Assembly: GCF_900116045.1 (NCBI RefSeq)
Contig: NZ_LT630450.1
Location: 124,001-188,000 of the forward strand
Length of the DNA: 64,000 nt
Source: Desulfovibrio piger
Lineage (GTDB): Bacteria > Desulfobacterota > Desulfovibrionia > Desulfovibrionales > Desulfovibrionaceae
Direction: 5' to 3'
Within the stretch, counting starts at the first letter, position 1; each line of letters starts with the position of its first letter. A model generated the notes under the pieces. It was not told the DNA's origin, searched no databases, and saw nothing but the letters and a program-made list of their open reading frames with translations. The translations under genes were made by a program, and so were the position numbers. This document shows positions 38,288-63,220 of the stretch, piece by piece.

Positions 38288-38290
38288 ACC

Positions 38291-38590: not shown

Positions 38591-38595
38591 TGGCC

Positions 38596-43530: not shown

Positions 43531-43574
43531 TTCGTAAGGCCGTCTTGCACTACTTTTCATGCATTCCCCTTCCG

Positions 43575-43655: not shown

Positions 43656-43670
43656 CCAAAGGAGGACAGC

Positions 43671-44795: not shown

Positions 44796-44804
44796 GAGAC
44801 CGCC

Positions 44805-45179: not shown

Positions 45180-45194
45180 TAAGGAGAGAGCATC

Positions 45195-46136: not shown

Positions 46137-46144
46137 GGGGCATC

Positions 46145-47106: not shown

Positions 47107-47115
47107 GGAACCACC

Positions 47116-47670
47116 ATGCTTGACCAGTACCGGGCCGCCATCGCGGCCCATTTGAGAGAACATCTGCCGCCCTCCGTCACGGTCTGCGAGCTGGGCAATT
47201 CTCTGGACGATGCGGAGATGCGACGCCTGTGTCTGGCCGCTCCCGGAGTGGGCGTGGAGATCCTGGGCGCGGACGGCGCGGAACTTGTGGGCCGCAGCCC
47301 CTATGTGACCATCAATGTGGGTCTGTCCCTGGTCTCCGGTCCCGGCTGTGACGGCCAGCCCGCGGACAGCGCCGTGCTGGTGCTGGCAGCCTTGGTCATG
47401 GCCGCGGTGGCGGACCAGCGCTTCGGCCTGGACTGCATGCGTCCGGAGAGCGTGCGGGCCGCAAATCTCACCAGCGGTGACCAGGCATCCAACAATGTGG
47501 CCCTGTGGACCGTCTCCTGGAAGCAGGCCCTGGACGTTTCCCACGTCATCGCCCGGCCGGATCTGGACGACTTTTTGCGCTGCTATACGCGCGAAAAAAA
47601 GGATGGCCCTGTGACCATCGAAACGCATCTTCCCGGCCCGTTGGCCGCAAAGGAGGACCCGCATGTGTAG
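47116..47670 (+). CDS. Mu gp37-like protein (DUF1834 type)
   Basis: 184 residues. Position and sequence (VGRSPYVTINVGLSLVSG; WTVSWKQAL) correspond to the gp37 family preceding the tail sheath, probably a tail-terminator component. Confidence 0.72.
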   Translation: MLDQYRAAIAAHLREHLPPSVTVCELGNSLDDAEMRRLCLAAPGVGVEILGADGAELVGRSPYVTINVGLSLVSGPGCDGQPADSAVLVLAALVMAAVADQRFGLDCMRPESVRAANLTSGDQASNNVALWTVSWKQALDVSHVIARPDLDDFLRCYTREKKDGPVTIETHLPGPLAAKEDPHV

Positions 47671-47860
47671 ACATATCACCCCTCGCGCCGGACTGGTGGT
47701 GCGGCGGCCCGATACGGGCGAGATCCTGCCGCCCGCCGGGGCCGTGGTTCCCTGGGGACCGCATCGTGCCTACTGGCTGCGCCGCCGGAAGGACGGCGAC
47801 GTGAGCATAACCCATACGGCGGTCCCTGTCCGGCCCGCCGATGACAGGGAGGAAGGATAA
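47663..47860 (+). CDS. DUF2635 protein (Mu gp38-like)
   Basis: 65 residues: PRAGLVVRRPDTGEILPPAGAVVPW followed by YWLRRRKDGDV matches DUF2635, always placed just before the tail sheath. Function unknown. Overlaps neighbours on both sides. Confidence 0.82.
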   Translation: MCRHITPRAGLVVRRPDTGEILPPAGAVVPWGPHRAYWLRRRKDGDVSITHTAVPVRPADDREEG

Positions 47861-49335: not shown

Positions 49336-49347
49336 GGAGGGACGCAT

Positions 49348-49572
49348 ATGACCGTCAAAGAACTTATGGAAAAACTGGCCGGACTGCCGCCGGACATGCC
49401 CGTCATGTACGACGACAAGACCACCTTCGGCCTGGATCTGGCCGCGGTTTCCGAGGTGTGTATCGGGCTGGATGACGAAAATCTGGAAGTGCTCGTCATT
49501 CACGCCGAGGGCGGCCATCCCGGCGCCACCCTGGACGAGATCCACCGGCGTGAAGCCGGGGGAAAGGAGTAA
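49348..49572 (+). CDS. small tail-region protein, unknown
   Basis: 74 residues, acidic: TVKELMEKLAGLPPDMPVMYDDKTT then beta-strand-rich. Similar short proteins about modulating 'limits and values' occur in many phages, but I assign no function. Strong AAGGAGGG ribosome site between sheath and tube genes. Confidence 0.7.
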   Translation: MTVKELMEKLAGLPPDMPVMYDDKTTFGLDLAAVSEVCIGLDDENLEVLVIHAEGGHPGATLDEIHRREAGGKE

Positions 49573-49575
49573 GCC

Positions 49576-49932
49576 ATGCCGCAGATCACAGGCAAGGCCG
49601 TCATCCGTGTGGACGGCGAGGAATGGCGCACCGAAGACGGTGCCAAGCTGAACCCCGGCGGCGTCACGCGCGAGGCCAAAGTGGGCGGCGGCAAAGTGCA
49701 TGGTTTTGCCGAAAAGACCAAGGAACCGGAACTGGAGTGTTCCGTCTATCACACCCGGGATACGGACCTGACGGCCATCAATGCCATCAGGGACGCCACC
49801 GTGGTCTATGAGTCCGATACCGGAGACCGGTACGTCCTGCGCAGCGCCTTTGTGACCGAACAGGGCGAACTGGACGCGGAAAACGGCACCATCAACGTCA
49901 AATTCAGCGCCATCTCGTGCGAAAGGATCTAG
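49576..49932 (+). CDS. tail tube protein (Mu gpM-like)
   Basis: 118 residues: ITGKAVIRVDGEEWRTEDGAKLNPGGVTREAKVGGGKVHGF and the LECSVYHTRDTDL segment fit the Mu-type tail tube. It lies after the sheath as expected. Confidence 0.86.
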   Translation: MPQITGKAVIRVDGEEWRTEDGAKLNPGGVTREAKVGGGKVHGFAEKTKEPELECSVYHTRDTDLTAINAIRDATVVYESDTGDRYVLRSAFVTEQGELDAENGTINVKFSAISCERI

Positions 49933-49934
49933 CC

Positions 49935-50429
49935 ATGACCCAACCCGCTCTGAAGGATTTTACCCCTGTGGACGGTATTACCGTGGCCGAAGGCGGCCAG
50001 GTGCGCGTCGAGCTTGAAGACGGCCTTGTGGTGGGCTCTGCCACCTACACGGCGGCCGTGCTGCGCCAGCTCAATGCCGGGGCCGTGCTGGCCGCGGCCG
50101 AAGCCGCGGAACGCCTGGTCTCCACGGCTACGGGCCTGGAGCTTGTTTCCTCCCCGGCTCGCATGGGGGCGGAATTGCTGCGCCGTCAGATCGCACGTCT
50201 GGAGGACGATAACGGCGGCAAGTTCGATGGGCCGCTCTCCCTGGAACATCTGGGCAAAGCCTCGGCCCGAGATCTGGACAGCCTTAACTTTGCCGCCCGC
50301 CTGTTGGATCAGGGAGCGGAAAAAAGCCTGGAAGGAGTAGCCGGCCGGGGGCGAAATGCTGCCGGTAGCGACCAGTCTCGAGATGCTGCTGGCCCGGCTG
50401 GCCAGCCGGGCGGGGCTGCCGGTGAATGA
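49935..50429 (+). CDS. tail assembly chaperone (Mu gp41-like)
   Basis: 164 residues. The N-terminal two thirds (KDFTPVDGITVAEGGQVRVEL...LDSLNFAARLLDQG) look like a tail assembly protein; the last 35 residues are Gly/Ala-rich and poorly structured, read over an A6 run at about 50320. Many phages make an extended chaperone by frameshifting here; I cannot demonstrate a slip site that reaches the next frame. Confidence 0.78.
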   Translation: MTQPALKDFTPVDGITVAEGGQVRVELEDGLVVGSATYTAAVLRQLNAGAVLAAAEAAERLVSTATGLELVSSPARMGAELLRRQIARLEDDNGGKFDGPLSLEHLGKASARDLDSLNFAARLLDQGAEKSLEGVAGRGRNAAGSDQSRDAAGPAGQPGGAAGE

Positions 50430-50484
50430 GGGGGCGTCCTGGCCGCTCCAGAGGCTCCTCCGTTTTTTGCACTATGTGAAATAG
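50356..50484 (+). CDS. short overlapping ORF between chaperone and tape measure
   Basis: 42 residues in the +1 frame relative to the chaperone: it starts MLPVATSLEMLLARL and ends RLLRFLHYVK, a helical peptide with a Trp-Pro segment. It fills the space before the tape measure, where phages often encode a second chaperone product. The ribosome site is weak (GGGGGC). Confidence 0.45.
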   Translation: MLPVATSLEMLLARLASRAGLPVNEGASWPLQRLLRFLHYVK

Positions 50485-50493
50485 GATTGCATC

Positions 50494-52485
50494 GTGGCGA
50501 ACCTGCGCACCTCCTTCACGCTTGATCTTGGCGGTAATCTCATTACCCGGGCCAAGGCCTTTTCTGCATCCATATCGGGCATGGCCCGGCAGATACGTTC
50601 CAGTCTGGGGGGCCTCAATGGTGTGGCCGCCCAGGCCGGGAAAGGTCTTGAGGCCCTGACCGGGCGCTATGCCGCGGGCTTGGCCGGACTGGGCGTCAGC
50701 TACAAGGCGGCCCAGGCTGTCATGGACAGCGCCCGTCTGGACAAGGGCCTGATGCGTACCAGCCAGACCATGGGCCTGACCGCACAGCAGGCGGTCGATG
50801 CCCGGCGCGAACTCTTCGCCATGGCACAGCGAACGGGTCAACCCATCGAAAAGCTCAAGGCCGGCTTGGATGACCTGGGGGCCTCGGGGATGGAGTATGC
50901 GCAGGCCTTGGAATCCATCAAGGCCATCAACCCTGCTATGGCCGTCACCGGGGCCAGCGGCGAACAGCTGGCCAGTGCCCTGAGTGTGGTGGGGGAAAGC
51001 TTCAAGTTTGATCTGTCCAAGGCCGGTGTAGCCGTCAAGCTGCTGGACCAGATGACCGTGGCCGGACGTCTGGGCAAGGCGGAGCTGGAAGATCTTTCCT
51101 CCATCGTTTCCCGCGTGGGGGTCAACGCCAAGAGCGCCGGATTGAGCTACACCCAGAGCTTGGCCTTCATCGAGCAGCTTTCCCAGATGGAGAAAGAGCC
51201 GGAGCGCCTGGCCACGCTGGTGGACTCCACGCTGCGTCTGTTCACCAACCAGAACTACCTGAAGGAAGCTGCCAAGGTCACGGGCGTCAAATTCTATGAT
51301 GCCAAAGGCGAACGGCGGGCCGCCTTCGATGTTTTGCGGGATATCGCCAAGAAGTACCAGAAGTTCAAGACCGATGCCGAACGGGACAAGGCCTTTTCCC
51401 AGGCCTTCGCCAAGACGGACCTAGATACCCAGCGGGGCTTGCGTTACCTGTTCAGCGCCGGTGTGCTAGACAATCTGGACAAGCTCAACGCGGAGATCGA
51501 GGGCGCATCCGGCACCATCGCCCGCGACCTGCCGGACGCCATCAACAACAGTGTGGACCAGGTGGGACGCCTGAAGGCGGCGCTTTCCCAGGCCGCTGAT
51601 GACTTCGCCAGGCCCTTCAATGAGGCCATCGCAAGCGGCATCGCCATGCTCCTGGACGACAAAGGCCTGTCCGGCAAGCAACTGCTGGGCGGTGCGGCCG
51701 CTGCGGGCGTGGCCGGATATGGCGCCCTCAAGCTGGCGGGCATGGGCCTTTCCCGCCTGGGCAGCAAGGCGGCCGGCGGGCTTGTCTCCACCGTGGCCCG
51801 GCAGGCTGGGCTTGCCGGGCTCAAGCTGCCGCTGCCCGTCTATGTGGTCAACAAACAGATGAGCCTTACCCGTGAGGCCATGCTGGGCCAATCGGGTGGC
51901 GCTCCCGCAGCTCCGGGGGCTCCAGGCGGAAAAAAGGCCGGCAAGGGCAAAACGGTCTCCGGGGCACAGCTTGACGGGGCCAAAAGCGCGGGCCGGGGCG
52001 CGGCTGTGCTGACTGCGGCCGCGACAGTGGCACCGGTCCTTTTTGATTCCGATGCCACCATGGCTCAAAAGGTCGACGCCGCTACGGACGCGGCCGGCGG
52101 CCTTGCCGGTGGTTGGGCGGGCACGGCGGCCGGCGCCAAGGCGGGTGCGTTCCTTGGCGGTTTTCTCGGACCTTTCGGCGCTGCCGCCGGTGGTGTCGTG
52201 GGAGGTGTGGCCGGGGGCATCTTGGGCTCGGAGCTTGGACAAAGCCTAGTCTCCACCGTCAAAAACTGGCTCGGCGTTGGGGAAGGTGAAAACCCGGCCC
52301 TGCAGAAAACGATGCAGACTTTCTTGACCTCCATGCAGCAGGTCGTCGCCGCCATCCCCACGGGCGGCATCGCTGTGGACGTCAACGTGACGGGCAATGC
52401 CCAGGCCGCCATCCGGTCCAGTAACGGCAATATCGACAGCGGCCTGTCCTATTCCCGGCAGATAGCCGACGAGATGATGGAGTAA
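50494..52485 (+). CDS. tail tape measure protein
   Basis: 663 residues. The N-terminal half is a TP901-type tape-measure domain (MGLTAQQAVDARRELFAMAQRTG; GESFKFDLSKAGVAVKLLDQM). Hydrophobic Gly/Ala-rich segments lie at about 395-435 and 530-590, the latter glycine-zipper-like (GGFLGPFGAAAGGVVGGVAGG). It sets tail length and may pass through the host membrane. GTG start. Confidence 0.9.
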   Translation: MANLRTSFTLDLGGNLITRAKAFSASISGMARQIRSSLGGLNGVAAQAGKGLEALTGRYAAGLAGLGVSYKAAQAVMDSARLDKGLMRTSQTMGLTAQQAVDARRELFAMAQRTGQPIEKLKAGLDDLGASGMEYAQALESIKAINPAMAVTGASGEQLASALSVVGESFKFDLSKAGVAVKLLDQMTVAGRLGKAELEDLSSIVSRVGVNAKSAGLSYTQSLAFIEQLSQMEKEPERLATLVDSTLRLFTNQNYLKEAAKVTGVKFYDAKGERRAAFDVLRDIAKKYQKFKTDAERDKAFSQAFAKTDLDTQRGLRYLFSAGVLDNLDKLNAEIEGASGTIARDLPDAINNSVDQVGRLKAALSQAADDFARPFNEAIASGIAMLLDDKGLSGKQLLGGAAAAGVAGYGALKLAGMGLSRLGSKAAGGLVSTVARQAGLAGLKLPLPVYVVNKQMSLTREAMLGQSGGAPAAPGAPGGKKAGKGKTVSGAQLDGAKSAGRGAAVLTAAATVAPVLFDSDATMAQKVDAATDAAGGLAGGWAGTAAGAKAGAFLGGFLGPFGAAAGGVVGGVAGGILGSELGQSLVSTVKNWLGVGEGENPALQKTMQTFLTSMQQVVAAIPTGGIAVDVNVTGNAQAAIRSSNGNIDSGLSYSRQIADEMME

Positions 52486-52488
52486 GCC

Positions 52489-53670
52489 ATGCGTGCCCGC
52501 AGCTTTTTCAGCAACCTGCGCGAGGCCTCCTTCCGGGGCGCCCGTTTCGAGGTGGACGATGTGGAAGCCTCGGGCGGTCGCCGTGTGGTGCTGCACGAGT
52601 ACCCGTTGCGGGATACGCCCTACAGTGAGGACCTGGGCCGCCGGGCGCGGGAGTTTTCGGTGCGCGGCTACATCATCCAGGGCCGCACGTATGACTACGC
52701 CTCGGCCCGGGCGGACGTGCTCAAGGCCCTGGAAGCCTACGGCCCCGGCGAGCTGGTGCATCCCTGGCATGGCGAGGTCAGTGTGGTGGTGGACGACTAC
52801 CGCCTGCGCGAGAGCATGGAGCGCGGGGGGCTGCTTGAACTGGATATCCGCTTTCGGGAAGCCGGACAGCTCGCGAACCCCACCTCATCCGCCGATACGG
52901 CCAAGGGGGTCGCTTCGGCCGCCTCCAGTGTCCGGCAAGCCCTGAAGAACAGTTTTTTATCCGCCTTCGCGCTCGCCCTGGACGAGATCGACAAAGCTGT
53001 CACGGCGCTCAATGACGCGGCAAGCCTTGCCATGGAATACCTGGGCCTGCCCCAAAGCCTTATTGCGGAAGGGCTTGCCTATGTTCAAAGCCTGATCTCC
53101 ACGCCCGCGGCCTTCTTCAATGCCCTGGTGGGGCTCTTCGGGGGGCTGCTCGGCAATGAGAGCGGGGAAAAAGCCCTGGCTGCTCCCGTGCCGGATGCGT
53201 CCTTCAGCATCGCATCCGGGGAAGGCACCGCGCCGCTGGAAAGTATCCTGGGCGGCAGTGCTTCCATCACCACCGAAGCCGAGCGCGTGATCCGCGATAC
53301 CGTCGCCCAGGTAGTGGTCATAGAGGCCGCCGCATCCACGGCCCACGCGGAGTACGCCACGGCCGACGACGCTCTGGCGGATCGGGATGCCGTGGTGGAA
53401 GGCCTGGATACCATCGAGCCGGCGGCTGATGATGCCGTCTTTCTGGGGCTTGCCGAGCTGCGCCGGGCCGTAGTGACGGACCTGACCACACGCGGCGCGG
53501 AGCTGCCGCGCGTGCGTGCCGTGACCCTGCCGGGCACCGTGCCCGCGCTGGTGGCCGCCTACCGCATCCATGCGGATGCCGGGCGTGCCGATGAGATCGT
53601 GTCCCGTAACCGCATCCGCCATCCCGGCCGCGTACCGGGCGGCACCCCGCTGGAGGTCTTGAGTGAGTAG
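52489..53670 (+). CDS. DNA circularization protein (Mu gpN-like)
   Basis: 393 residues. The N-terminus NLREASFRGARFEVDDVEASGGRRVVLHEYPLRDTPYSEDLG is the conserved DNA circulation N domain; GRRAREFSVRGYIIQG follows. In Mu, protein N is linked to protecting or circularising infecting DNA and is a tail component. Confidence 0.88.
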   Translation: MRARSFFSNLREASFRGARFEVDDVEASGGRRVVLHEYPLRDTPYSEDLGRRAREFSVRGYIIQGRTYDYASARADVLKALEAYGPGELVHPWHGEVSVVVDDYRLRESMERGGLLELDIRFREAGQLANPTSSADTAKGVASAASSVRQALKNSFLSAFALALDEIDKAVTALNDAASLAMEYLGLPQSLIAEGLAYVQSLISTPAAFFNALVGLFGGLLGNESGEKALAAPVPDASFSIASGEGTAPLESILGGSASITTEAERVIRDTVAQVVVIEAAASTAHAEYATADDALADRDAVVEGLDTIEPAADDAVFLGLAELRRAVVTDLTTRGAELPRVRAVTLPGTVPALVAAYRIHADAGRADEIVSRNRIRHPGRVPGGTPLEVLSE

Positions 53671-54730
53671 CCGCAAGCCCGACATTATCCTGGAGGTGGA
53701 CGGCCGGCGTTACGGCGGCTGGAAATCCATAGATATCAGCCGGGGCCTGGAGCAGTGCGCCGGGACCTTCAGGTTGTCCGTCACCGACCGCTGGCCGCAG
53801 CAAAATGAACCGCGCGGCATCAAGGCCGGGGCCGCCTGCCGTGTGACCATCGACGGCCGGGCCGTCATCACGGGCTATGTGGATGATGTGGAAGTCTCCT
53901 GGAGCGCCACCTCCCACGAGTATCGCGTCTCCGGACGAGACAAAACGGCGGATCTTGTGGACTGCTGCCCGCCCTCCCTGCAACTCAAGGGCGCGGACCT
54001 GCCCGCGCTGGCCCGCCGCTGGGCCGGACTGTTCGGCATCGAGGTCATGGTGGAAGCGGAATGCAACAAGGCCGTACCCGGTTTCAAGACCGAAGAAGGC
54101 GAGACCTGTTTCGAGATGCTGGAACGGCTGGCGCGGGCCAATGCCGTCATGCTCACCAGCGACGGCGACGGCCGTCTGGTCATCACCCGCGCCGGCACAC
54201 ACAAGGCGGCCGCCGCTTTGCAGATGGGCGGCAATCTGCTGCGCCTTGCTCTGTCCTCCAGCATGAAGGATCGCTTTTCGGAAGTTACTGTCAAAGGCCA
54301 GTCCGCCGGTTCCGATACCTGGGACGGCCCCGGCAATGCCCAGGCCAAGGGGACGGCCACCGATCCCAACGTGCCCCGCTACCGCCCCCTGACCGTCATC
54401 GCGGAACAGGAGGAGTTCGGCAGCGCCACCACCCGCGCCCGCCACGAAGTTGCCGTGCGCTACGGCAAGGGGCATCAGGCCCGGGCGCTGGTCAACGGCT
54501 GGTATGCGGGGACGGAGCTCTGGCAGCCCAATCGTCTGGCCGACATCCTGGACAGCAGCGGGCAGGCCATGGCCACCTGGCTCATCGTCAATGTGAGCTG
54601 GCACATGGACGACCGGGGCTGCCTTACGGAACTTTCCCTGTCCCCCAAGGAAGCCTATGAACTGCTGCCCGAGATGCCCAAAGGGGCAAAGGGCAAAAAA
54701 GGCAAGGAGGCCTCGTTATGGCTGCAATGA
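53663..54730 (+). CDS. baseplate hub protein (Mu gpP-like)
   Basis: 355 residues with the hub pattern GWKSIDISRGLEQCAGTFRLSVTDRW and DGRAVITGYVDDVEVSW. It forms the baseplate hub around the spike. GTG start overlapping the upstream gene by 8 nt. Confidence 0.87.
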   Translation: MSSRKPDIILEVDGRRYGGWKSIDISRGLEQCAGTFRLSVTDRWPQQNEPRGIKAGAACRVTIDGRAVITGYVDDVEVSWSATSHEYRVSGRDKTADLVDCCPPSLQLKGADLPALARRWAGLFGIEVMVEAECNKAVPGFKTEEGETCFEMLERLARANAVMLTSDGDGRLVITRAGTHKAAAALQMGGNLLRLALSSSMKDRFSEVTVKGQSAGSDTWDGPGNAQAKGTATDPNVPRYRPLTVIAEQEEFGSATTRARHEVAVRYGKGHQARALVNGWYAGTELWQPNRLADILDSSGQAMATWLIVNVSWHMDDRGCLTELSLSPKEAYELLPEMPKGAKGKKGKEASLWLQ

Positions 54731-55365
54731 TCCCCGGGCGCCTCCTGCGCTCCCTGCAACGGCGCATGGCCACCCTGGTTGGCCGTGCCGTGCTATTGGC
54801 CGTCAATTCCGGGACAGGCCTGCAAAGCGTGCAGGTGAGCATCTTGGCCGACGAGGTCATGGACGGAGTGGAACATATGGAGCCGTATGGCTTCACCTCC
54901 AACCCCCTGCCGGGCGCGGAAGGTGTGGTCCTCAATGTGGCCGGACAGCGCGGCGCCTGCGTGGGCGTGAACTTCGGCAACCGCGGCGTGCGTGTGGCCG
55001 GTCTCAAGAGCGGCGAGGTCTGCATCTATACCGACGAGGGCGACAAAATCACCCTCAAACGGGACCGGCATATTGAGATCGAGACCTTGCATCTGACCAT
55101 CCATGCCCAAGAGGATGCCACGGTGGAAACGAAGACCTACACGGTCAAAGCCTCGCAGAGCGTCAGCTATGAGACGCCGTCCTTTGGCCTTGGCGGAGGA
55201 TCGGGCGGCTGCACGGCGGATATTGCTGCCGACATGGCCATCACCGGCAATACCACGCAACAGGGCACTATCACCGCCAGCGGCGATGTGACGGCCGAAG
55301 GCATCTCCACCGCCCACCACACCCATCCCGGCGATTCCGGCGGCACCACGGGGGCGCCGCAATGA
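54718..55365 (+). CDS. baseplate spike protein (gpV/Mu gp45-like)
   Basis: 215 residues. Repeated beta-strand segments (RHIEIETLHLTIHAQEDATVETKTYTVKAS...) form the triple beta-helix, ending in the metal-binding apex pattern HHTHPGDSGGTTGAPQ. It pierces the outer membrane. Confidence 0.87.
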   Translation: MAAMIPGRLLRSLQRRMATLVGRAVLLAVNSGTGLQSVQVSILADEVMDGVEHMEPYGFTSNPLPGAEGVVLNVAGQRGACVGVNFGNRGVRVAGLKSGEVCIYTDEGDKITLKRDRHIEIETLHLTIHAQEDATVETKTYTVKASQSVSYETPSFGLGGGSGGCTADIAADMAITGNTTQQGTITASGDVTAEGISTAHHTHPGDSGGTTGAPQ

Positions 55366-55850
55366 TGCGCGTCAATGACCTGGCTCTGCTGCCTCCTGCT
55401 CCTCTGGACGTGGCCGGGCCGGATTGCGGCATGGAGGCCGGGGATCTAGTGGCCGAAGACAGCTTGCGCACGGCCGTCATCCTGTCCCTGTTCCTGGACA
55501 GGAGGGCAAACGATGACGACATCCTACCCAATGGCAGCGATGACAGGCGCGGCTGGTGGGCAGACACCGTGGCACCCATGACCGACTACGGCATCGGCGG
55601 AGGCAGCGCCTCCGGGGACCGTATCGGTTCCCGTCTCTGGCTGCTTTCCCGTGAAAAGCAGCTTGCCGGCGTACTGGAAAGGGCGCGGCACTATGCTGAA
55701 GAAGCCCTCGCCTGGCTGGTGGAAGACGGTGTGGCCACAGCTGTCAGCGTCACGGCCTCCAGCCCTAGGTCTGGCTGGCTTGCGCTTGAGGTGACGATCA
55801 CCTTGCCCGACACCAGCGAATACCGGGAAACATTTCCTCTGTCCGTCTGA
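55362..55850 (+). CDS. baseplate protein (Mu gp46-like)
   Basis: 162 residues: ILSLFLDRRANDDDILPNGSDDRRGWWAD and GSRLWLLSREKQL are characteristic of the gp46 baseplate wedge family. Overlaps the spike gene by 4 nt; last gene before a terminator. Confidence 0.87.
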   Translation: MMRVNDLALLPPAPLDVAGPDCGMEAGDLVAEDSLRTAVILSLFLDRRANDDDILPNGSDDRRGWWADTVAPMTDYGIGGGSASGDRIGSRLWLLSREKQLAGVLERARHYAEEALAWLVEDGVATAVSVTASSPRSGWLALEVTITLPDTSEYRETFPLSV

Positions 55851-55880
55851 AGCCTCCCGCGTCGCAACGACTGAAGCATG

Positions 55881-55904
55881 GCCCGGTTTTTACCGGGCTT
55901 TTTT
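55881..55904 (+). terminator. rho-independent terminator before the baseplate J operon
   Basis: GCCCGGT-TTTT-ACCGGGC followed by six Ts, abutting the second late promoter palindrome exactly as at 43610. Confidence 0.92.
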
Positions 55905-55949
55905 GTGAGAATCCTCACCAGATTTTTACAGACGCTCCGGGCATGATGT
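55905..55949 (+). promoter_or_regulatory. late promoter element, copy 2
   Basis: GTGAGAATCCTCAC plus CAGATTT, 15 bases, GCATGATGT: blocks identical to 43611-43655. It drives baseplate J, the tail-fibre genes and perhaps the recombinase. Confidence 0.75.
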
Positions 55950-55953
55950 GTCC

Positions 55954-57009
55954 ATGCCATTTGAACGTCCCTCCCTTCAGGAACTCATTGCCCGCATCCA
56001 GGCCGATATGGACAGCCGTCTTGACGGCCAGCCTTGGCTGCGCCGCCGCCTGCTGGCCATCCTGGCCCGCATGGAGGGCGGCGTGGCCCACGGCCTGTAC
56101 GGCTATCTGGACTGGCTGGCCCGGCAGATCATGCCGGATACGGCCGAGGCCGAACATCTGGAACGCTGGGCCTCCATCTGGGGCATCACACGCCGGACCG
56201 CCATACAGGCAGCCGGGTATGCCGCTTTCAGCGGCGAGGATGGTGCCGCCATCCCCACCGGTACGGAAGTACAGAGCCCGTCCGGGCAGATCTACGTGAC
56301 CCTGGCCGATGCCTGGATCGAAGACGGTACGGCCCGTGCGGCCATCGAGGCTGTGGAGGCCGGGCCGGACGGCAATGCATCCGACGCAACGCCCTTGCAG
56401 CTGACCATACCGGTGGCAGGCGTCCAGGCCCGGGCCGCAGCTTCCGGCAACATCACCGGCGGCGCGGCAGCGGAGACGGATGCCTCCCTGCGCACACGCC
56501 TGCTGTCGCGCATCCGCACCCTGCCGTCGGGCGGGGCCGCGCGCGATTACGTTACCTGGACACTGGAGGTGGCGGGCGTGACCCGCGCCTGGTGCTACCC
56601 GGGCGAGATGGGCCGCGGCTCCGTGACCGTGCGCTTCATGATGGATGATGCCTATGAAAACGGCATCCCCCAGCCGGAAGACGTGCAGCGCGTTGCGGAT
56701 CATCTGGACGGTCTGCGGCCGGTCACGGCGGATGTCTATGTGGTGGCCCCCGTGCCGGAGCCCGTCAGCCTTGATTTGCGCATCAGCCCGGACAATCCCC
56801 GGCTTCGCGTGGTGGTGGCCGAGGCCGTCTGGGCCGTCCTGCGTCGCGATGCCGTGCCCGGCGGCACGGTCGTCATCTCCCGCCTTAACGAGGCCATTTC
56901 CGGTGCTGAAGGCGAGGAAGACCACGTTCTCTTGTCTCCCACCCAGAATATCCAGATTCCCACCGGCAAGATCGCCGTGCCGGGCAGCATCACCTGGGAG
57001 GAGGCATAG
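55954..57009 (+). CDS. baseplate J protein (Mu gp47-like)
   Basis: 351 residues: MPFERPSLQELIARIQADMDSRL, the EAEHLERWASIWGITR segment and AATEGPDGNASD-type motif (AVEAGPDGNASDATPL) identify baseplate protein J. I chose ATG 55954, giving the usual MPF start; GTG 55948 is possible. Confidence 0.88.
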   Translation: MPFERPSLQELIARIQADMDSRLDGQPWLRRRLLAILARMEGGVAHGLYGYLDWLARQIMPDTAEAEHLERWASIWGITRRTAIQAAGYAAFSGEDGAAIPTGTEVQSPSGQIYVTLADAWIEDGTARAAIEAVEAGPDGNASDATPLQLTIPVAGVQARAAASGNITGGAAAETDASLRTRLLSRIRTLPSGGAARDYVTWTLEVAGVTRAWCYPGEMGRGSVTVRFMMDDAYENGIPQPEDVQRVADHLDGLRPVTADVYVVAPVPEPVSLDLRISPDNPRLRVVVAEAVWAVLRRDAVPGGTVVISRLNEAISGAEGEEDHVLLSPTQNIQIPTGKIAVPGSITWEEA

Positions 57010-57593
57010 TGTCCTACCGCGAGCAGTTCTTTGCCCTGCAGCCGCCGGGTCAGGCCCTGCCCACAGACCCGGACAGCGTCTGGGGCCGCCTGCTGGACGG
57101 TCTGGCGCGGGAATACGGCCGCACGGAGAGCCGGAGCAGCGCCTTGGTACGGGAATCCGATCCACGGCAGTCCGCGGAGCTGTTGCCCGACTGGGAGCGC
57201 GTCTGCGGCCTGCCCGGAGACTGCGCCATCGCCTGGGACAGTACCTTGCAGGCCCGCCGTGCGGCCGTGGTAGCCCAGCTGACCGGCGCCGGGGGCCAGC
57301 GTATCGCCTACTTTCAGCAGCTGGCGGCCCTGCTGGGGCTTTCCATCCATGTGACGGAGTACAAGCCGTTTTTGACCGGGCTTTCCCGCTGTGGCCAGCG
57401 CCTCAACGGCGACCACGACGTGCGCTTCGTCTGGTCCGTGGTGGTCAGGGGGCAGCGTGTGCTGCGCTTTCGCTGCGGGGCCAGTGTGCCGGGGGAACGC
57501 CTGCTGGACTTTGCCCGCCGGGAAGATCTGGAATGCCTGCTGCGCCTTTACGCCCCGGCCCATACGGTACTCATCATCGGATACGAGGAATAA
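57009..57593 (+). CDS. DUF2313 tail protein (Mu gp48/YmfQ-like)
   Basis: 194 residues: a C-terminal pattern (RREDLECLLRLYAPAHTVLIIGYEE) and a LLPDWERVCGLPGDC segment typical of the family that joins baseplate and fibres. GTG start overlaps the gp47 stop (TAGTG). Confidence 0.85.
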   Translation: MSYREQFFALQPPGQALPTDPDSVWGRLLDGLAREYGRTESRSSALVRESDPRQSAELLPDWERVCGLPGDCAIAWDSTLQARRAAVVAQLTGAGGQRIAYFQQLAALLGLSIHVTEYKPFLTGLSRCGQRLNGDHDVRFVWSVVVRGQRVLRFRCGASVPGERLLDFARREDLECLLRLYAPAHTVLIIGYEE

Positions 57594-57595
57594 GC

Positions 57596-58414
57596 ATGAA
57601 ATACGCGCCCCCCATCGGGCAGGAAGCCCAGGGCGAAGAAGCCCACTATGTCGACGGCAACCCGGAACTCGGCATCCTTGGCTCGCCCGTACCCGCGGCT
57701 GCCATTGAGCAGGGCCAGCGGGAGCTTTTGCATGTCATCAAACAGGCAGGCCTCACGCCCAGCAGCGAAGACCTGACCCAGCTCTTCCAGGCCATCGGCA
57801 AGCTGATCAGCGACAAAGTTCCCATCGCTACCAACGAAACGGTCGGGCTCGTCAAAGGCGGTGCCAATATCGATATCGGCGAAGACGGGACCATCAGCCT
57901 GACAGGTATTGATCCCTGGTCTGTTTTCCCGAAGCGAGTCCCTATTGCCGTTGACGGAGTTACGTTTGGCGGCAGTGACGGACGCCGTGCCATTATGCCT
58001 GGCGAGTCCGAACCCCGCGAGAACTGGGTCAAATGTGATGGCGGTAGTGATGGTCAGGGCGGCTCTGTGCCGAATTTGCAAGGGCGGTTTATTTTGGGTG
58101 CGTCGGAAGACCACAAAGCCGGCTCCACTGGCGGTTCGGAGACGCATGCCCACAGTCTATCCGGCACTGTCGGCGAGACCACGCTCACGGTGGAGCAGCT
58201 GGCCAGTCATACGCATAAATATACCATTGGTAACGGTGGGGCCTGGGAGGCGAGTGGCGCATCGTATCGAGAGTCTACGGAGAACAGATCCCAAATCCCT
58301 ACGACTTCGACTGGAGGGTCTAAGCCCCACACACATACACTTTCCGGGGCGTCTGGAGAGGTGGATAGCTTGCCGCCATATTATGCGCTTGCGCTGATCA
58401 TGCGCATCGCATGA
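57596..58414 (+). CDS. tail fibre protein, currently expressed form
   Basis: 272 residues. The constant part (1-187) contains a collar-like segment (AIMPGESEPRENWVKCDGGSDGQGGSVPNLQGRFILG). At residue 188 the recombination site encodes LSGTVG, after which the variable part runs ETTLTVEQLASHTHKYTIG ... GGSKPHTHTLSG ... LPPYYALALIMRIA. The His-rich HTH repeats suggest metal-stabilised trimers. Two other variable parts lie downstream in inverse orientation. The tip probably determines which host receptor is bound. Confidence 0.88.
   Translation: MKYAPPIGQEAQGEEAHYVDGNPELGILGSPVPAAAIEQGQRELLHVIKQAGLTPSSEDLTQLFQAIGKLISDKVPIATNETVGLVKGGANIDIGEDGTISLTGIDPWSVFPKRVPIAVDGVTFGGSDGRRAIMPGESEPRENWVKCDGGSDGQGGSVPNLQGRFILGASEDHKAGSTGGSETHAHSLSGTVGETTLTVEQLASHTHKYTIGNGGAWEASGASYRESTENRSQIPTTSTGGSKPHTHTLSGASGEVDSLPPYYALALIMRIA
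58155..58175 (+). repeat. recombination site 1, in frame in the expressed fibre gene
   Basis: Core TATCCGGCACTGTCGG at 58158-58173; 21 bp are identical to the reverse complement of 58941-58961. Confidence 0.9.
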
Positions 58415-58664
58415 CGTACGACAGTACATAGTACGGCGGCAGGCCGTTGGCTTCTCCAGATGCACCGTCCAGCGTATGGGTATGGGGCTGAGAGCCGCCT
58501 ACGGTAGTTGTGGTTCCGTGCGTATCGCCATTGATGTTGCCATTTTTTGTAACGCCATCAGCATGCGTTTCCCCAGAAATCCATGTTTGGACATGACGCC
58601 ATTGGTGGGCATGCGCTGTCATCTGCTCGATGGACAGCGTGGTGTCCCCGACAGTGCCGGATAC
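58398..58664 (-). other. silent tail-fibre C-terminal cassette 2
   Basis: Read on the minus strand from the site at 58663, it is open for 87 codons with no start codon of its own: VSGTVGDTTLSIEQMTAHAHQ ..., then GGSQPHTHTLDGASGEANG, ending LPPYYVLSYVMRCA and TGA at 58398. It aligns along its whole length with the expressed end but differs strongly in the middle 35 residues. Its last 17 nt overlap the 3' end of the expressed cassette. Confidence 0.85.
58648..58663 (-). repeat. recombination site 2
   Basis: Minus-strand copy of the 16-bp core TATCCGGCACTGTCGG. Flanks diverge from the other two sites. Confidence 0.85.
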
Positions 58665-58701
58665 ACCCGGCCACCACCCTCAACCCCGCGTCTACCGGGG
58701 C

Positions 58702-58961
58702 TCAGACGCGGATCACATAATGCCCGGCATAGTACGGCGGCAGGCTGTCGGCAGCCTCGGAGCTGACCCCAGACAGACTATGGGTGTGAGGCTGAGAACC
58801 ACCGGTCTGTCTTGTCTTTTGGCTCGGACCGTAGGCGTCGTCTAGTCGGCATACATTTCGATTGGCGCTGCTGCCCTCCAAAGCAGATCCGTAAAGGTTA
58901 TGTGTGTGGCCAGCCAGCTGCTCCACGCTCAACGTCGTGGCGCCGACAGTGCCGGATAGAC
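58702..58961 (-). other. silent tail-fibre C-terminal cassette 3
   Basis: Minus-strand open frame from the site at 58958 to TGA at 58702: LSGTVGATTLSVEQLAGHTHN ..., then GGSQPHTHSLSGVSSEAADS, ending LPPYYAGHYVIRV. Same layout as the expressed cassette with a different variable middle. No promoter or start of its own is evident. Confidence 0.85.
58941..58961 (-). repeat. recombination site 3
   Basis: Exact 21-bp inverted copy of site 1, at the outer edge of the segment, 42 bp before the assembly gene. Confidence 0.9.
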
Positions 58962-59002
58962 ATTTTTAATCGCCGCCATGCGGCATAACCAGGAGCTTTC
59001 CT

Positions 59003-59527
59003 ATGCCTCAAGTTACCGTAGTTCCCGCCGATAATCTGATCATCGTCGACGGCGCGGCCCTCGTTTTCCCGTTTGACGCCCCGACAAATCTGCATGCCCT
59101 GCAATGGCACGGTGACACTGGCCATACCGAGTGGACGGATGGCCCCAACAAGCCGCTGACTGCTGAAGATTATGACGAGCAGGTCGTGCCGTATGTGAAG
59201 CTCTGGCAGGCGGAAAAAGCACGCCTGGAGAAGAAAGCCACCGAGGAGGCTGCCGCCCGTGCGCTCCCCGATGCCAAGTCCGCCAAGCAAAGCGAGATCC
59301 AGAACGGCTACGACGCTGCTCTGGCGGCCTCCCTGACCATGCCCTCCACCGCCCCTACTGCGCAGGACGTAGCCGTGGGCGCGGCCCTTCTGGCCGTAGA
59401 GGATGCGGAGGGGCTGGCGTATGTGCAGGCTCTGCACGCCGCCCGCCGTGACGAGCTGCTGGCCGCCGTGGATGCCGCCGAGACCGTAGAGGCCGTGCAG
59501 GCCGTGGTCGTGGACTATGACGTATAG
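59003..59527 (+). CDS. tail fibre assembly protein
   Basis: 174 residues. The N-terminal PDNLIIVDGAALVFPFDAP-type segment and LHALQWHGDTGHTEWTDG fit tail-fibre assembly and DUF4376-like chaperones; the remainder is a long Ala-rich helix. It follows the fibre switch, outside the invertible part, so it would serve all fibre variants. Start at 59003. Confidence 0.78.
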   Translation: MPQVTVVPADNLIIVDGAALVFPFDAPTNLHALQWHGDTGHTEWTDGPNKPLTAEDYDEQVVPYVKLWQAEKARLEKKATEEAAARALPDAKSAKQSEIQNGYDAALAASLTMPSTAPTAQDVAVGAALLAVEDAEGLAYVQALHAARRDELLAAVDAAETVEAVQAVVVDYDV

Positions 59528-60245
59528 CCTGGCGGGCCAGACCATCACCGCTCCGGACGCGAGCGGGCATGGCCTGGATATAAGCAACGGGCAGGACTGG
59601 CTGGTAGAGGATTGCCTCATCGACCTGTCCGCCTGCCCGCTGGGGCAGCTGGATGAGGCTGTGGGCGTGGTATGGGGCAGCAGTGCCGTTTTTCGACGCT
59701 GTGTCATCCGGGGCGCGGCCAAGCTGGTGCTGTGCGGCTCCGGGGATACGGATAAAGTGAACGTTGAACGCGGCAAGACCGTCATTTTCGAGGACTGTAT
59801 CCTCGAGGACTTCGGGCGGCGGGGACCGGAAGCGCAGTCCGGCATGCGGGTCATGCTGCGTGGCTGCCTGATCCGCAACTGGTGCGCTCCGGACCGCTTT
59901 GATGTGCGGTCCTTTGGATCTTGGGCGCATCACGGCGGCAGCATCGAGGCCGTGGGCTGCGTGTTTGATCAGCCCCGTTTCTGGCATGGCTGGCACATCA
60001 TGGCACGAGACTGGCTGGCCCATCTGGGCCAGGCATGGAACGACGAGGACCTGCGCGGCCTGCTACGCCCCGCCAACTGGCTGCCCGGTGTCTGCCGGGG
60101 GCTGGTGGCCACAGCGGGCGGACAGGTCCGGGCCGAGAACTGCCATGCCACACGCTGGTGGATACGGCTTGAAGGGCACCATGGCCCGCGCATGAGCCCC
60201 AACCAAGCGCAGGCGCTCATGGCTAGGCTGGAGGGTATGCTATAG
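59517..60245 (+). CDS. beta-helix-like phage protein, unknown
   Basis: 242 residues with repeated short strands (DWLVEDCLIDLSAC, AVFRRCVIRGAAKLV, VIFEDCILEDFG, VMLRGCLIRNW, SIEAVGCVFDQP), a right-handed parallel beta-helix pattern as in pectate-lyase-like or tailspike proteins. It overlaps the assembly gene by 11 nt. It may be an accessory fibre or decoration protein; enzymatic activity is not evident. Confidence 0.7.
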   Translation: MTYSLAGQTITAPDASGHGLDISNGQDWLVEDCLIDLSACPLGQLDEAVGVVWGSSAVFRRCVIRGAAKLVLCGSGDTDKVNVERGKTVIFEDCILEDFGRRGPEAQSGMRVMLRGCLIRNWCAPDRFDVRSFGSWAHHGGSIEAVGCVFDQPRFWHGWHIMARDWLAHLGQAWNDEDLRGLLRPANWLPGVCRGLVATAGGQVRAENCHATRWWIRLEGHHGPRMSPNQAQALMARLEGML

Positions 60246-60265
60246 GCCTCCCACAAGGAGGCCAT

Positions 60266-61156
60266 ATGGCAACAAAACACAAACGGACCACTATGACGGC
60301 CCGCCAACTGGCAGAGGACTATCTGGCCCACCAGATCACGCGGGACGTGACCCGCACCAGTACCCGGCATCACCTCAACCAGCTTCTGGCCCTGTTCGGG
60401 GGCTGGCAGGCCCGCCGGGTGGGGGCGGATCAAGTACGGGAGTTTCTGGCGGTCCAGAAAACACGCGGCGTCATGGCCACCACAGCGCACCACCGCGTCC
60501 GCCTGTGGCGTACCGTCTTGGCCTGGGCAGTGGAGACGGGCCGCCTGCCCGCGTCGCCTCTGGCGGGTTTCCGGCTGCACCGCCCCAGGGCACGGCGCAT
60601 CGATCCGCCCACGCGGGCCGAGGCTGCGCGCATGTATAAGGTAGCCGCGCCGCATATCCGGCGTGTGATTGTCCTGGGCATGGCGGCCGGGCCGCGTATC
60701 GGCCCCAGCGAGCTTTTTCGGCTTGCATGGGCGGATGTGGATCTGGCGGCGGGCTATATGAGGATGCCCAACGCTGCCAAGGGCGCGAAGGACGACAGCA
60801 GGATCGTCCCCATCCGGGACGACATCCTGCCCCTGTTGCGGAAGTGGAGAGAGGAAGACGAAAAGCTGGCCTGTCCGTGGGTTATTCACTGGCAGGGACG
60901 GCCGGTGCGATGCATAGGCCATGCGTGGCACCAGGCCCGCAAGGCGGCGGGCATCACGCGGCGCATAACGCCCTACAGCCTGCGCCATGCCATGCCCACG
61001 GAAGCCCTTGAGCATGGCGCGGACGTGAAAGCGGTGGCGGAGGTCATGGGCCATGCTGACCCGACCACGCTGCTGCGTGTCTATCAGCACACACGCTACA
61101 GGCTTCGGAAAAAAGCGGTCAACGCCGCGCCAGGACTGAAACTCGACAAGATTTGA
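60266..61156 (+). CDS. tyrosine recombinase in the gin position, candidate fibre invertase
   Basis: 296 residues. The catalytic pattern is recognisable: Arg in AAGPRIGPSELFRLAW (about 155), Lys in AAKGAKDDSRIVPI, then TPYSLRHAMPTEAL (the first His of the box is Tyr), MGHADPTTLLRVYQHT with the nucleophile Tyr. Integration is already served by the Mu transposase, and this gene lies where Mu has gin, next to the fibre switch. It is therefore the likely inversion enzyme, like Rci of plasmid shufflons. AAGGAGG precedes the ATG. Confidence 0.82.
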   Translation: MATKHKRTTMTARQLAEDYLAHQITRDVTRTSTRHHLNQLLALFGGWQARRVGADQVREFLAVQKTRGVMATTAHHRVRLWRTVLAWAVETGRLPASPLAGFRLHRPRARRIDPPTRAEAARMYKVAAPHIRRVIVLGMAAGPRIGPSELFRLAWADVDLAAGYMRMPNAAKGAKDDSRIVPIRDDILPLLRKWREEDEKLACPWVIHWQGRPVRCIGHAWHQARKAAGITRRITPYSLRHAMPTEALEHGADVKAVAEVMGHADPTTLLRVYQHTRYRLRKKAVNAAPGLKLDKI

Positions 61157-61265
61157 CAGTGGCGGGGGCGCCGCAACGCCCCCACCGACGGGCCTGACAA
61201 GCCCGCCACGGCCCCACGGATAGAAAAAACGACCCTCTATCCGCAGAGTATCCGCCTTGTCGGAA

Positions 61266-61324
61266 GTCTCGGCGAGAGACGTCATCAGTATAGGCGGTTA
61301 TATCATGGGGCGCAACATGATTGC
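61266..61324 (+). promoter_or_regulatory. com-mom control region
   Basis: An inverted repeat GTCTC-N5-GAGAC (61266-61280), a TATCAT -10-like element (61301-61306) and the dyad GCAACATGATTGC (61312-61324) precede com. There is no GATC in 61157-61329, so the Dam/OxyR switch of Mu mom is absent. Confidence 0.45.
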
Positions 61325-61329
61325 ATACC

Positions 61330-61545
61330 ATGAAACAGGAGCAACTTACCGAGATCCGTTGCCGCCATTGCGGCAAACTTCTGGCCAGAGGCTGGATAGT
61401 TGAAGCATCACTTGAGCATAAATGCCCCCGCTGTGGGGCATATCACCTCCTGCGGGCCACGCGCCCCGATCAGGCAGGCCATGGAGCCTCTCCTATGGAG
61501 GCACTATGGCCACAAACCGCAGACCATACCATCCGCCGGTCCTGA
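61330..61545 (+). CDS. com: Com-like zinc-binding translational activator of mom
   Basis: 71 residues. IRCRHCGKLLARG and HKCPRCGAYHLL give the two CxxC pairs of Com, the small RNA-binding protein that unfolds mom mRNA in Mu. It overlaps the mom gene by 40 nt, as in Mu. A TTG start three codons upstream is possible. Confidence 0.85.
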   Translation: MKQEQLTEIRCRHCGKLLARGWIVEASLEHKCPRCGAYHLLRATRPDQAGHGASPMEALWPQTADHTIRRS

Positions 61546-62246
61546 GCGACTGGCTGCCCCCCCTGGCCGGGCCGCCCGGCTACATCATGGGAGCAACAGG
61601 GGTGCAAGGGTTCGGCACGGCCGATTATTTTGTAGCCCAAATCCCCTGTGCTACAGCCCGTGAAATTATCCGGCGCGAACACTACAGCCATAGCGTTGTC
61701 AACAATAGTTACGTAAACTTGGGAGTTTTTCTCGAAGGGGCCATCGTTGGCGTCCTGCAATGGGGCTATGCCCTCAATCCGGCCAGAGCTGGCAAAGTGG
61801 TGGCAAACACTACACAAGGACAATACCTGGAACTCAACCGTATGTGGCTGTCGGACGATGCCCCGCGCAACAGTGAGAGCCGGGCGATCAGCTACAGCTT
61901 GAAATACATCCGCCGCGCCTGCCCGTCCGTGGCCTGGGTACAGTCCTATGCGGACGAACGCTGCCAGGGCCTGGGCGTGGTCTATCAGGCGTGTTCATTT
62001 TTGTATCTTGGATGCCATGAGAGTCCGTTTTACGCGTTGGACGGCGAGGTCTATCACAATATACTGGCCACAGCCAAAAGGCAGGGCAACAAACGTGGAG
62101 CATACCTGCGGGCCAATTTGGACAGGGCACGAAAGATCATGCTGCGCCAATATCGTTACATCCGCTTCTTGAAAACGGATTGGCTCCGGCGCCTTCGCCT
62201 GCCGATTCTTCCGTATCCCAAACGGCAGATGCCTGATGGGCTGTAA
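61506..62246 (+). CDS. mom: Mom-like DNA adenine modification protein
   Basis: 246 residues. The pattern REIIRREHYSHSVVNNSYVNLGVF, ELNRMWLSDDAPRNSESRAISYSLKYI and VAWVQSYADERCQGLGVVYQA is the Mom acetyltransferase-like fold. Mom converts adenine to an acetamido derivative that resists restriction. GGAGG lies 5 nt before ATG 61506, inside com. Confidence 0.87.
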   Translation: MATNRRPYHPPVLSDWLPPLAGPPGYIMGATGVQGFGTADYFVAQIPCATAREIIRREHYSHSVVNNSYVNLGVFLEGAIVGVLQWGYALNPARAGKVVANTTQGQYLELNRMWLSDDAPRNSESRAISYSLKYIRRACPSVAWVQSYADERCQGLGVVYQACSFLYLGCHESPFYALDGEVYHNILATAKRQGNKRGAYLRANLDRARKIMLRQYRYIRFLKTDWLRRLRLPILPYPKRQMPDGL

Positions 62247-62321
62247 AGATAATCAGATAAAACTATCTGAGGGCCATGAGCCCCGTTATTGAGGGCCGCG
62301 AGCTCTAACTGGGGAAATTTT

Positions 62322-63062
62322 ATGGTTCCACGCTTTCAGGCGGACAACGTCACTCTATACCAAGGTGACGCGCTGGCTATCCTGACAACGCTGAAGAGCG
62401 GCTCCGTGGACGCTGTCCTGACCGATCCTCCGTACTCCAGCGGCGGTGTCTCCCTGAGTACACGACAGGCCGACCCGGCGCAAAAATACCAATTGAGCGG
62501 GGTAAAACGTCGGTACCCTCCGATGCTTGGCGATGCCAAAGACCAGCATAGCTGGGCCATGTGGTGTACGTTGTGGCTTGGAGAATGTTGGCGCATTGCC
62601 CGCGATGGTGCGCCGCTCATGGTCTTTACGGACTGGAGACAGCTTCCGGCCTTAAGCGACGCCGTACAAGCCGCAGGGTGGAAATGGCTGGGCATCGTGC
62701 CTTGGGACAAGCGCAGCGCTCGCCCGCAAATGGGCCGTTTCCGGCAACAGTGCGAATATGTCCTATTTGCCTCCAAGGGACGCATCATCGAGCATGCTCG
62801 CTCATGTCTTCCGGGCGTGTACTCTTATCCGGTAGTTGCTGCACGAAAGGTTCACCTGACCAGCAAACCCGTGCCCCTGATCGAAAATCTGCTTGCCGTG
62901 GCCGCTGCACAGGCTACTGTCCTAGATCCGTTCATGGGCGGCGGAAGCGTAGGGGAGGCCTGTATCAGGACTGGCCGGGGTTATATCGGCATGGAACTGT
63001 CGCCGGAATATTACGAGATCAGCCGCAGCAGGCTGACAGCCGTGCTCGCTGAGCGCACATAG
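62322..63062 (+). CDS. site-specific DNA (adenine) methyltransferase
   Basis: 246 residues. DAVLTDPPYSSGG (motif IV DPPY, about 34-46) comes first and DPFMGGGSVGEACIRTGRGYIGMEL (motif I, about 205-229) last, the beta-class order. It is a stand-alone enzyme without a restriction partner, probably protecting phage DNA together with Mom. ATG 62322. Confidence 0.87.
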   Translation: MVPRFQADNVTLYQGDALAILTTLKSGSVDAVLTDPPYSSGGVSLSTRQADPAQKYQLSGVKRRYPPMLGDAKDQHSWAMWCTLWLGECWRIARDGAPLMVFTDWRQLPALSDAVQAAGWKWLGIVPWDKRSARPQMGRFRQQCEYVLFASKGRIIEHARSCLPGVYSYPVVAARKVHLTSKPVPLIENLLAVAAAQATVLDPFMGGGSVGEACIRTGRGYIGMELSPEYYEISRSRLTAVLAERT

Positions 63063-63064
63063 AA

Positions 63065-63093
63065 AAAGGCGGGGTCCAACGACCTCGCCTTTT
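63065..63093 (+). terminator. rho-independent terminator after the methyltransferase gene
   Basis: AAAGGCGGGGTC pairs with GACCTCGCCTTT (one G-U) around a 4-nt loop. The last phage transcript ends here; 63094-63174 is non-coding and contains end-related repeats. Confidence 0.85.
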
Positions 63094-63220
63094 GCAATTA
63101 TGTTGCATCCTATGAAATACTATGTTGCGCATGTTATTACGCTTCCCCAAGGGGATTTTTGACGGCGCGCATCAAAAAAACCACCCGCTATGCGGGTGGA
63201 GACAATACGTTATACACACA

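Follow-up and report, generated by a model that had tools for sequence, protein, structure and literature searches.

In this study, we show by comparison of sequences that a Mu-like prophage of Desulfovibrio piger FI11049 carries an array of intact tail-fibre tip cassettes led by short recombination sites, together with an intact tyrosine recombinase (TyrR), that recombinase clade and site class segregate together among related prophages, and that relatives join the same fibre stem to different cassettes. We interpret the locus as a phage tail-fibre shufflon in which TyrR recombines short asymmetric sites, a reading to which we give a probability of about 0.9; the prophage very probably flips DNA to choose its fibre tip. 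The window analysed is 64,000 nucleotides long and corresponds to bases 124001-188000 of the complete 2,807,531-bp genome (PMC5313605). Loci, genomes and fibre proteins are given as L, G and P numbers.

Results

Organization of the fibre locus

The locus lies in prophage FI11049_P2 (Table 1), whose Mu-like matches include Portal_Mu, a Mu-like protease, sheath, Com and Mom; the left arm carries the DDE transposase and the MuB-like ATPase, and the right arm the Mu-type portal and protease, Com and Mom. Downstream of the fibre gene come two inverted tip cassettes, genes for an assembly protein and a beta-helix-like protein and, 1.3 kb beyond the array, the gene for TyrR. A preliminary description had placed a three-cassette switch with a 16-bp core at 58155..58961. 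The parts of such a switch are present, but the functional unit is wider, reaching from the fibre gene at 57596 to the end of the recombinase at 61156, and the conserved core measures 13 bp, the base on either side of it being variable. The beta-helix-like gene is kept between the assembly gene and the recombinase at the array loci L048, L098 and L099, and is present at L053 as well, which has no array. Elsewhere in the prophage (34279-35199), a staphylococcal-nuclease-like domain is fused to an Ada-type zinc-binding domain.

Table 1. Features of the fibre locus and its prophage (window coordinates)
Feature	Position	Strand	Basis or remark
Mu-like prophage FI11049_P2	24226..63174	+	chromosome 148226-187174 in the prophage table of PMC12724379
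MuB-like transposition ATPase	26426..27601	-	AAA_22; phrog_296 DNA transposition protein
DDE transposase, presumed integration function of FI11049_P2	27589..29394	-	rve below Pfam cut-off; phrog_310 transposase, E 3e-77
Tail-fibre gene, expressed form (stem residues 1-187 + tip 1)	57596..58414	+	PHROG tail/tail-fibre matches
Recombination site 1, 13-bp core TATCCGGCACTGT	58158..58170	+	within fibre gene, at stem/tip border
Silent tip cassette 2	58398..58663	-	open frame; tip match; expressed behind the same stem in P0148
Recombination site 2, core	58651..58663	-	13 bp, leads cassette 2
Silent tip cassette 3	58702..58958	-	open frame; tip match
Recombination site 3, core	58946..58958	-	13 bp, leads cassette 3
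Tail-fibre assembly protein	59003..59527	+	phrog_4912
Beta-helix-like protein	59517..60245	+	weak PF13229 below cut-off; homologues adjoin arrays
Tyrosine recombinase TyrR, proposed shufflase, class-1 array clade	60266..61156	+	PF00589; clade and site class; catalytic motifs

The fibre reading frame encodes 272 amino acids from an ATG at 57596 that lies inside a longer open frame, and site 1 starts at the second base of codon 188, in frame as first described. The 16-mer TATCCGGCACTGTCGG occurs exactly at 58158-58173 (+) and, as had been noticed, twice more on the opposite strand (58648-58663 and 58943-58958); the reported identity of sites 1 and 3 over 21 bp (58155-58175 and 58941-58961) was also seen. 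With up to three mismatches the 16-mer is found at four places in the window, compared with a mean of 0.58 in 100 shuffles, none of which reached four. In the whole genome exact copies are confined to the three window places, and with two mismatches there are three further places, the control (the pattern read backwards) giving three matches.

Both inverted frames run open from their site to a stop and can be aligned with the expressed tip, from which they differ in the middle, so that the likeness to the expressed C-terminus first proposed holds. An in-frame stop lies six codons before cassette 2 and three codons before cassette 3, and no ATG, GTG or TTG is found between that stop and the start of either cassette; ATG and TTG codons are present deeper within these frames, which the earlier statement describes as lacking a start. 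Two HxH motifs (fibre residues 205-207 and 245-247) are kept in all 30 tips of the alignment. HxH motifs in the tip of T4 gp37 bind iron. Where neighbouring cassettes converge, their tails overlap, in 16 of 18 cases by exactly 17 bp (58398-58414 in the window) and in the other two by 22 bp. The AlphaFold prediction for the fibre reached a mean pLDDT of 49.8 and was set aside.

Switching is probably active in FI11049 itself, although the same genome holds a decayed counterpart. In prophage FI11049_P3 (L048 7950-8330, ~467.9-468.3 kb) the fibre stem is broken off just before the site and a single inverted cassette is left, with the changed core TTGCTGGCACTGT; the recombinase of that locus is a full open frame with 61% identity. 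This sister array lends some weight to the view that the array in the window is likewise a former switch that has become locked. We regard that as unlikely: TyrR is full length with intact motifs, the three cores are identical, all three tips are open to a stop, and proteins of the kind that isomers would encode circulate (see below). Moreover, according to the prophage study from which the boundaries of P2 are taken, this prophage was released in every induced sample (PMC12724379).

Constraint on the core at the DNA level

Among 35 class-1 cassettes from 13 loci, picked by the core pattern with at most one mismatch and so favouring conserved cores, positions 1-13 (TNTCCGGCACTGT) are invariant except for position 2 and, in one cassette, position 8. 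The core sits in the codons for an SGTV motif; third codon positions 5 and 11 show no variation in these cassettes, and third positions 14 to 29, outside the core, all vary. All 50 cassettes (35/35 of class 1 and 15/15 of the G049 array) carry the rare threonine codon ACT, whose share among 254 threonine codons of 13 prophage genes is 3.5%. In the AT-rich G049 array the core is TTTCTGGGACTGT in 13 of the 15 cassettes, with one other base in the remaining two, and again third codon positions are nearly frozen inside the core and free outside it. The frozen synonymous positions and the bias towards ACT indicate a constraint on DNA and not only on protein.

Dropped from this count were 14 matches without the core pattern, namely three fragments (L045, L046 and L050) that lie at gaps or ends, two cassettes of L119 and nine single-tip fibres; the two cassette tables also leave out L048, L064, L053, L054, L055 and L135. 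Since L054 and L055, which are single fibres without an array, carry the same core, the core alone is no marker of an array. The second base of the core is uniform within each of 12 arrays and unlike between arrays (the core starts TATCC in the window, TGTCC in L045, L098, L099 and L140, and TTTCC in L100, L117 and others), a pattern to be expected from poor exchange between unlike cores.

Evidence for movement of tips between positions

Related prophages with another cassette in the expressed position, for which the preliminary description proposed to look, were found. In the complete genome G111, prophages L100 and L117 have three cassettes in common, two of them identical and one at 98.7%, and a cassette that is silent in L100 (6786-7045, minus strand) is expressed, without any sequence difference, in L117 (7331-7590, minus strand), the 25 bp on the stem side being identical as well. 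When 52 cassettes were compared, counting a flank as shared if at least 22 of 25 upstream bases agreed, 20 pairs shared the upstream flank with an unlike cassette and six shared the cassette with an unlike flank. Three prophages of G055 have like spacers joined to different cassettes, and the first cassette of L105 behind the stem-side flank has the same first 45 bp as a silent cassette of L103. Open frames run through the first site in L103, L104 and L105; a fibre N-terminus was recognised in L103 and L104, and we infer the stem of L105 from its flank, which is alike in 27 of 30 bp.

Alternative joins were also seen in two metagenome-assembled genomes (MAGs). On one scaffold of G024, from mouse, the stem leads into tip 18, and a 350-bp inverted copy connects the stem to tip 19; past a gap, this 18/19 block is attached to the flank of the assembly gene, with the change exactly at the site, and either a mixture of two isomers or two prophage copies would yield this layout. 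In G049, the last cassette on the fibre-stem contig shares 74 bp with a silent cassette of the array contig, which for its part terminates in 77 bp that repeat one of its spacer-cassette junctions; here too, two prophage copies are the alternative to isomers.

The search with the fibre protein gave 1370 matches at E <= 1e-40; 120 were listed, of which 99 allowed a division into stem and tip and 21 did not. The window stem is unchanged in seven of the 99 split listed proteins, each of which has a different tip, and tip 1 of the window is not among these. One of the seven, P0148, has a stem identical to the window's in 187 of 187 residues and a tip identical to silent cassette 2 in 87 of 88; the sole tip difference is residue 1 (Leu for Val), a residue with the first base of its codon on the stem side of the core, as expected if the base left of the core stays with the stem at the predicted crossover edge. 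Compared with the window stem plus cassette 2, P0152, P0153 and P0155 differ in one stem residue and residue 1, and P0152 in one more. Natural proteins that join the window stem, or a one-residue variant of it, to silent cassette 2 thus lend support to the original proposal of tip swapping by inversion. P0121 and P0162 have the same four stem differences from the window, the tip of P0121 being 98% like tip 1 and that of P0162 sharing 82 of 88 residues with cassette 2. Cassette 3 was absent from the 99 split listed proteins, and no listed protein joins it to the window stem. Probing IMG/VR with the three tips returned 1, 0 and 0 contigs and no isomer, the single contig being that of the decayed P3-type locus.

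The inverted copies might alternatively be leftover duplicates, or donors for RecA-type recombination or gene conversion, with no dedicated site-specific switch at all. Tips behind one stem are indeed extremely diverse (the 61 listed proteins whose stems reach 95% identity or more fall into 48 tip clusters), and mosaic cassettes with the same middle and different ends indicate that homologous recombination also acts: window cassette 2 and the L048 cassette are alike in the middle and not at the end, and window cassette 3 and L100:7084-7334 are alike at the ends and not in the middle. However, the exchange boundaries fall at a 13-bp core with frozen synonymous positions, the silent cassettes are inverted, in frame and closed off by upstream stops, and the recombinase clade tracks the site classes (see below). 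We therefore consider duplicates without a switch very improbable and retain the site-specific shufflon.

The recombinase clade and its site classes

The integrase match of TyrR ends at residue 277 of 296, with 19 residues after it. About 8 residues precede the core-binding profile in TyrR and about 63-85 in most members of classes 2-4; in none of the 10 proteins tried was a Pfam arm-binding domain named. Relative to XerA, two residues are inserted in TyrR behind the first catalytic arginine, and a tyrosine takes the place of the first histidine (box II). The motifs G.R.GPSE and Y..RH are present in all 35 members of the array clade, and in 10 and 21, respectively, of 30 sister recombinases, so these marks are wider than the clade. 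NCBIfam gave only sub-cut-off matches for TyrR, to Xer, integron-integrase and invertase models, and no close relative was found in known phages, where all 99 records were below 60% identity and the 20 listed were at 23-31%.

In a quick tree of 65 recombinases, built without bootstrap, the array-linked proteins form one clade of 35 (SH-aLRT 100) with the 30 sisters outside; clade members L109, L114 and L116, at which an array was not seen, were labelled apart from the sisters. The sites are TNTCCGGCACTG in class 1, TTTCCGAAATTG and TTTCCGAGCTTG in class 2, TNCCCGGAACTGT in class 3 and TGCCCGGTACTG in class 4 (one member). For the 27 members whose site class is known, three changes on the tree, the minimum, account for the four classes; class 3 forms several basal groups and no single subclade. 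Clade and site class thus tie the tyrosine recombinase to the arrays, in keeping with the switch enzyme first proposed, and we infer that TyrR catalyses the inversion.

At least two sites of the class lie nearby in 25 of the 35 clade members, in one direction only among the visible copies of L052, L108 and L163. The other ten comprise two assembly gaps (L101, L102), five contig edges (L109, L110, L114, L119, L161), one decayed locus (L048) and two unexplained cases (L116, L177); L119 has two inverted tips with another site, and two scattered pattern hits each at L109 and L177 were left uncounted. No array was seen at any of the 30 sister loci, with a site pattern that was learned from the arrays themselves; L132 and L198 have two and three hits, respectively, spread over 7-8 kb. 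When 12-mers were counted without bias on both strands, none of the 30 sister loci exceeded three copies and 15 array loci reached 4 to 14, the best 12-mer differing from the site in 2 of the 15; smaller arrays, the window with its three copies included, are not outstanding in this count.

Of the 16 sister recombinases located in bacterial genomes, 13 have a tRNA gene no more than 70 bp from their end, and on viral contig pieces none of 14 has a tRNA gene beside it. Within 1 kb of the array-clade loci no tRNA gene was found in the 30 scanned (of 34), some of which are cut by contig ends. The sisters therefore look like integrases and the clade like shufflases. By tree, clade members occur in 16 of 79 genomes of the genus, plus G049, where the gene is split into two frames, in a census that leaves out three weaker matches; MAGs of Bilophila and Mailhella (Desulfovibrionaceae) contain members as well. 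The recombinase gene is interrupted, forming two frames, at L043 6336-7173 (G049), L046 1436-2324 (G024) and L107 7787-8634 (G112), with no array seen at L107.

A search of 101 genomes with the fibre protein gave matches in 21. Fifteen cassettes, most of them in alternating direction, lie on the G049 contig, and L106 has 11 sites. Of the 12 single-tip fibre loci (L049, L051, L053-L062), 11 have no family recombinase in the fetched stretch, and L055 has a weak recombinase match 5 kb away. The two-cassette array L140 (G111, ~2.915 Mb; 9457-10800) has class-1 sites and, in the 20 kb fetched, no clade recombinase, just a weak match 8 kb away; it may be served in trans. That array, together with the integrase-like sisters, is what speaks for the least probable reading, a real inversion carried out by a recombinase elsewhere in the cell with TyrR as the phage integrase, which we find hardly credible given that the prophage owns a Mu-type transposase and ATPase, that no scanned array-clade recombinase abuts a tRNA gene, that site class follows the recombinase tree, that serine recombinase families have no match within the window, and that the only three Resolvase family matches of the genome lie far from the locus (321 kb, 1849 kb and 1890 kb).

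Discussion

In the mechanism that we propose for the shufflon, TyrR would pair inverted sites and exchange strands inside the core. Inversion between site 1 and site 2 or 3 would place the corresponding silent cassette, 2 or 3, in frame after the constant stem, the displaced tip would move to the silent, inverted slot, and the particles of one lysogen would carry alternative tips with presumably different receptors. In class 1 the exchange would fall within the interval bounded by the two bases that flank the 13-bp core, and in class 2 apparently in the first 7 bases, since the same flanks join both variants, which are unlike from base 8. The fibre tips may set host range or change the receptor.

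Shuffling of a receptor-binding protein by a tyrosine recombinase has a published precedent in the Rin shufflon of Bifidobacterium prophages, where reads and virion DNA showed inversions (PMC6109161), with a counterpart in Eggerthella lenta (PMC8778435). As far as these published descriptions go, both Rin and the D. piger locus have a prophage tyrosine recombinase adjoining an array of receptor-binding-protein C-terminus cassettes and, within the constant gene as well as at the cassettes, a short asymmetric repeat (of 11 bp and 8 bp in Rin-type systems, with a 13-bp core here); Rin is described without an arm-binding domain, as seems to be so for class 1 of the array clade, and related prophages differ by inversions, seen for the D. 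piger system in the sequences of relatives alone. The two are likened by organization; they differ in host phylum and phage type, the D. piger phage being Mu-like, and the D. piger system has the IntDes marks discussed below, several site classes and arrays of up to 15 cassettes.

In the accounts of the R64 shufflon cited here, multiple inversions likewise yield alternative C-termini of a surface-binding protein (PMC11852207, PMC5430464), at sites with a conserved core and right side and a variable left; in D. piger positions 1-13 are kept and the upstream side varies. It has been proposed that the asymmetry of the sfx sites confines Rci to inversion (PMC11852207). Unlike TyrR with its short tail after the integrase match, Rci carries a further domain at its C-terminus; it has been placed in the IntP2 subgroup (PMC8138268). 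Gin of Mu, Cin of P1 and Min of p15B also swap phage tail-fibre C-termini by inversion, as summarized in the Rin report (PMC6109161), but they are serine recombinases. Gin belongs to phage Mu, and the D. piger prophage is Mu-like. The phase variation of the haloarchaeal virus phiCh1 uses a tyrosine recombinase. This tailed virus, the subject of work cited in PMC8371274, inverts DNA to vary a surface-adhesion protein, in an archaeal host unlike that of the D. piger prophage.

The preliminary description had called a multi-cassette tyrosine-recombinase switch in a Mu-like phage unusual. This needs to be narrowed, given that the Rin report already describes such shuffling in prophages (PMC6109161), and stands for Mu-like phages, for which we found no other case: titles and the starts of abstracts in our literature search named no Desulfovibrio or Mu-like tyrosine-recombinase tail shufflon. 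In the main text of a 2025 study of D. piger prophages the words 'inversion' and 'recombinase' occur 0 times (PMC12724379). What is new here is the Mu-like phage, recombinases fitting the IntDes description, several site classes and large arrays.

IntDes is a subgroup of Desulfovibrio tyrosine recombinases with an arm-binding domain and, in the published classification as cited, no function assigned (PMC8138268). Matched by that description, TyrR has its marks, a shifted first catalytic arginine and a tyrosine for the first histidine; in contrast to IntDes as described there, it has no N-terminal extension and is array-linked (PMC8138268). It is conceivable, at somewhat less than even odds, that IntDes includes a clade of tail-fibre shufflases, in which a tRNA-site integrase lineage of Desulfovibrionaceae was converted in Mu-like phages into at least four recombinase/site classes, with arrays trading cassettes between co-resident prophages, so that a polylysogen would be a shared tip library served partly in trans. 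The present findings give a testable function to recombinases fitting a group published without one, and the site classes naturally suggest themselves as candidate orthogonal recombinase/site pairs.

The phage lies dormant in a human gut bacterium, and the choice of tip may change its possible hosts. The 2025 study found diversity-generating retroelements (PMC12724379), and the shufflon would be a second route by which gut Desulfovibrio phages may change receptors. Cross-infections in that study gave, in its own account, no suitable hosts (PMC12724379); mixed tips in each lysate could be one reason for such failure.

Three further observations concern related arrays. At L098 9092-14531 (G111, ~1.78 Mb), the right ends of two prophages, with 96% identity across 2181 bp, lie head to head through a two-cassette array. 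No matching left-left junction was found in G111; we do not claim a large chromosomal inversion, as its left-left partner would be expected at 2.915 Mb, where L140 is an ordinary two-cassette array, and L098 perhaps reflects a deletion between the arrays of two neighbouring prophages. In D. piger ATCC 29098, runs of N precede the assembly gene at L101 5326-5893, where the run lies between the fibre N-terminus and the assembly gene, and at L102 6961-7690, as expected if assembly failed at a shuffling array; masking by the operators of the assembly is another possible origin. Finally, the G055 arrays L103, L104 and L105 contain both site variants, TTTCCGAAATTG and TTTCCGAGCTTG, in one array, possibly as two partly separate exchange groups, and their divergent cassette starts are spaced a constant 71 bp apart.
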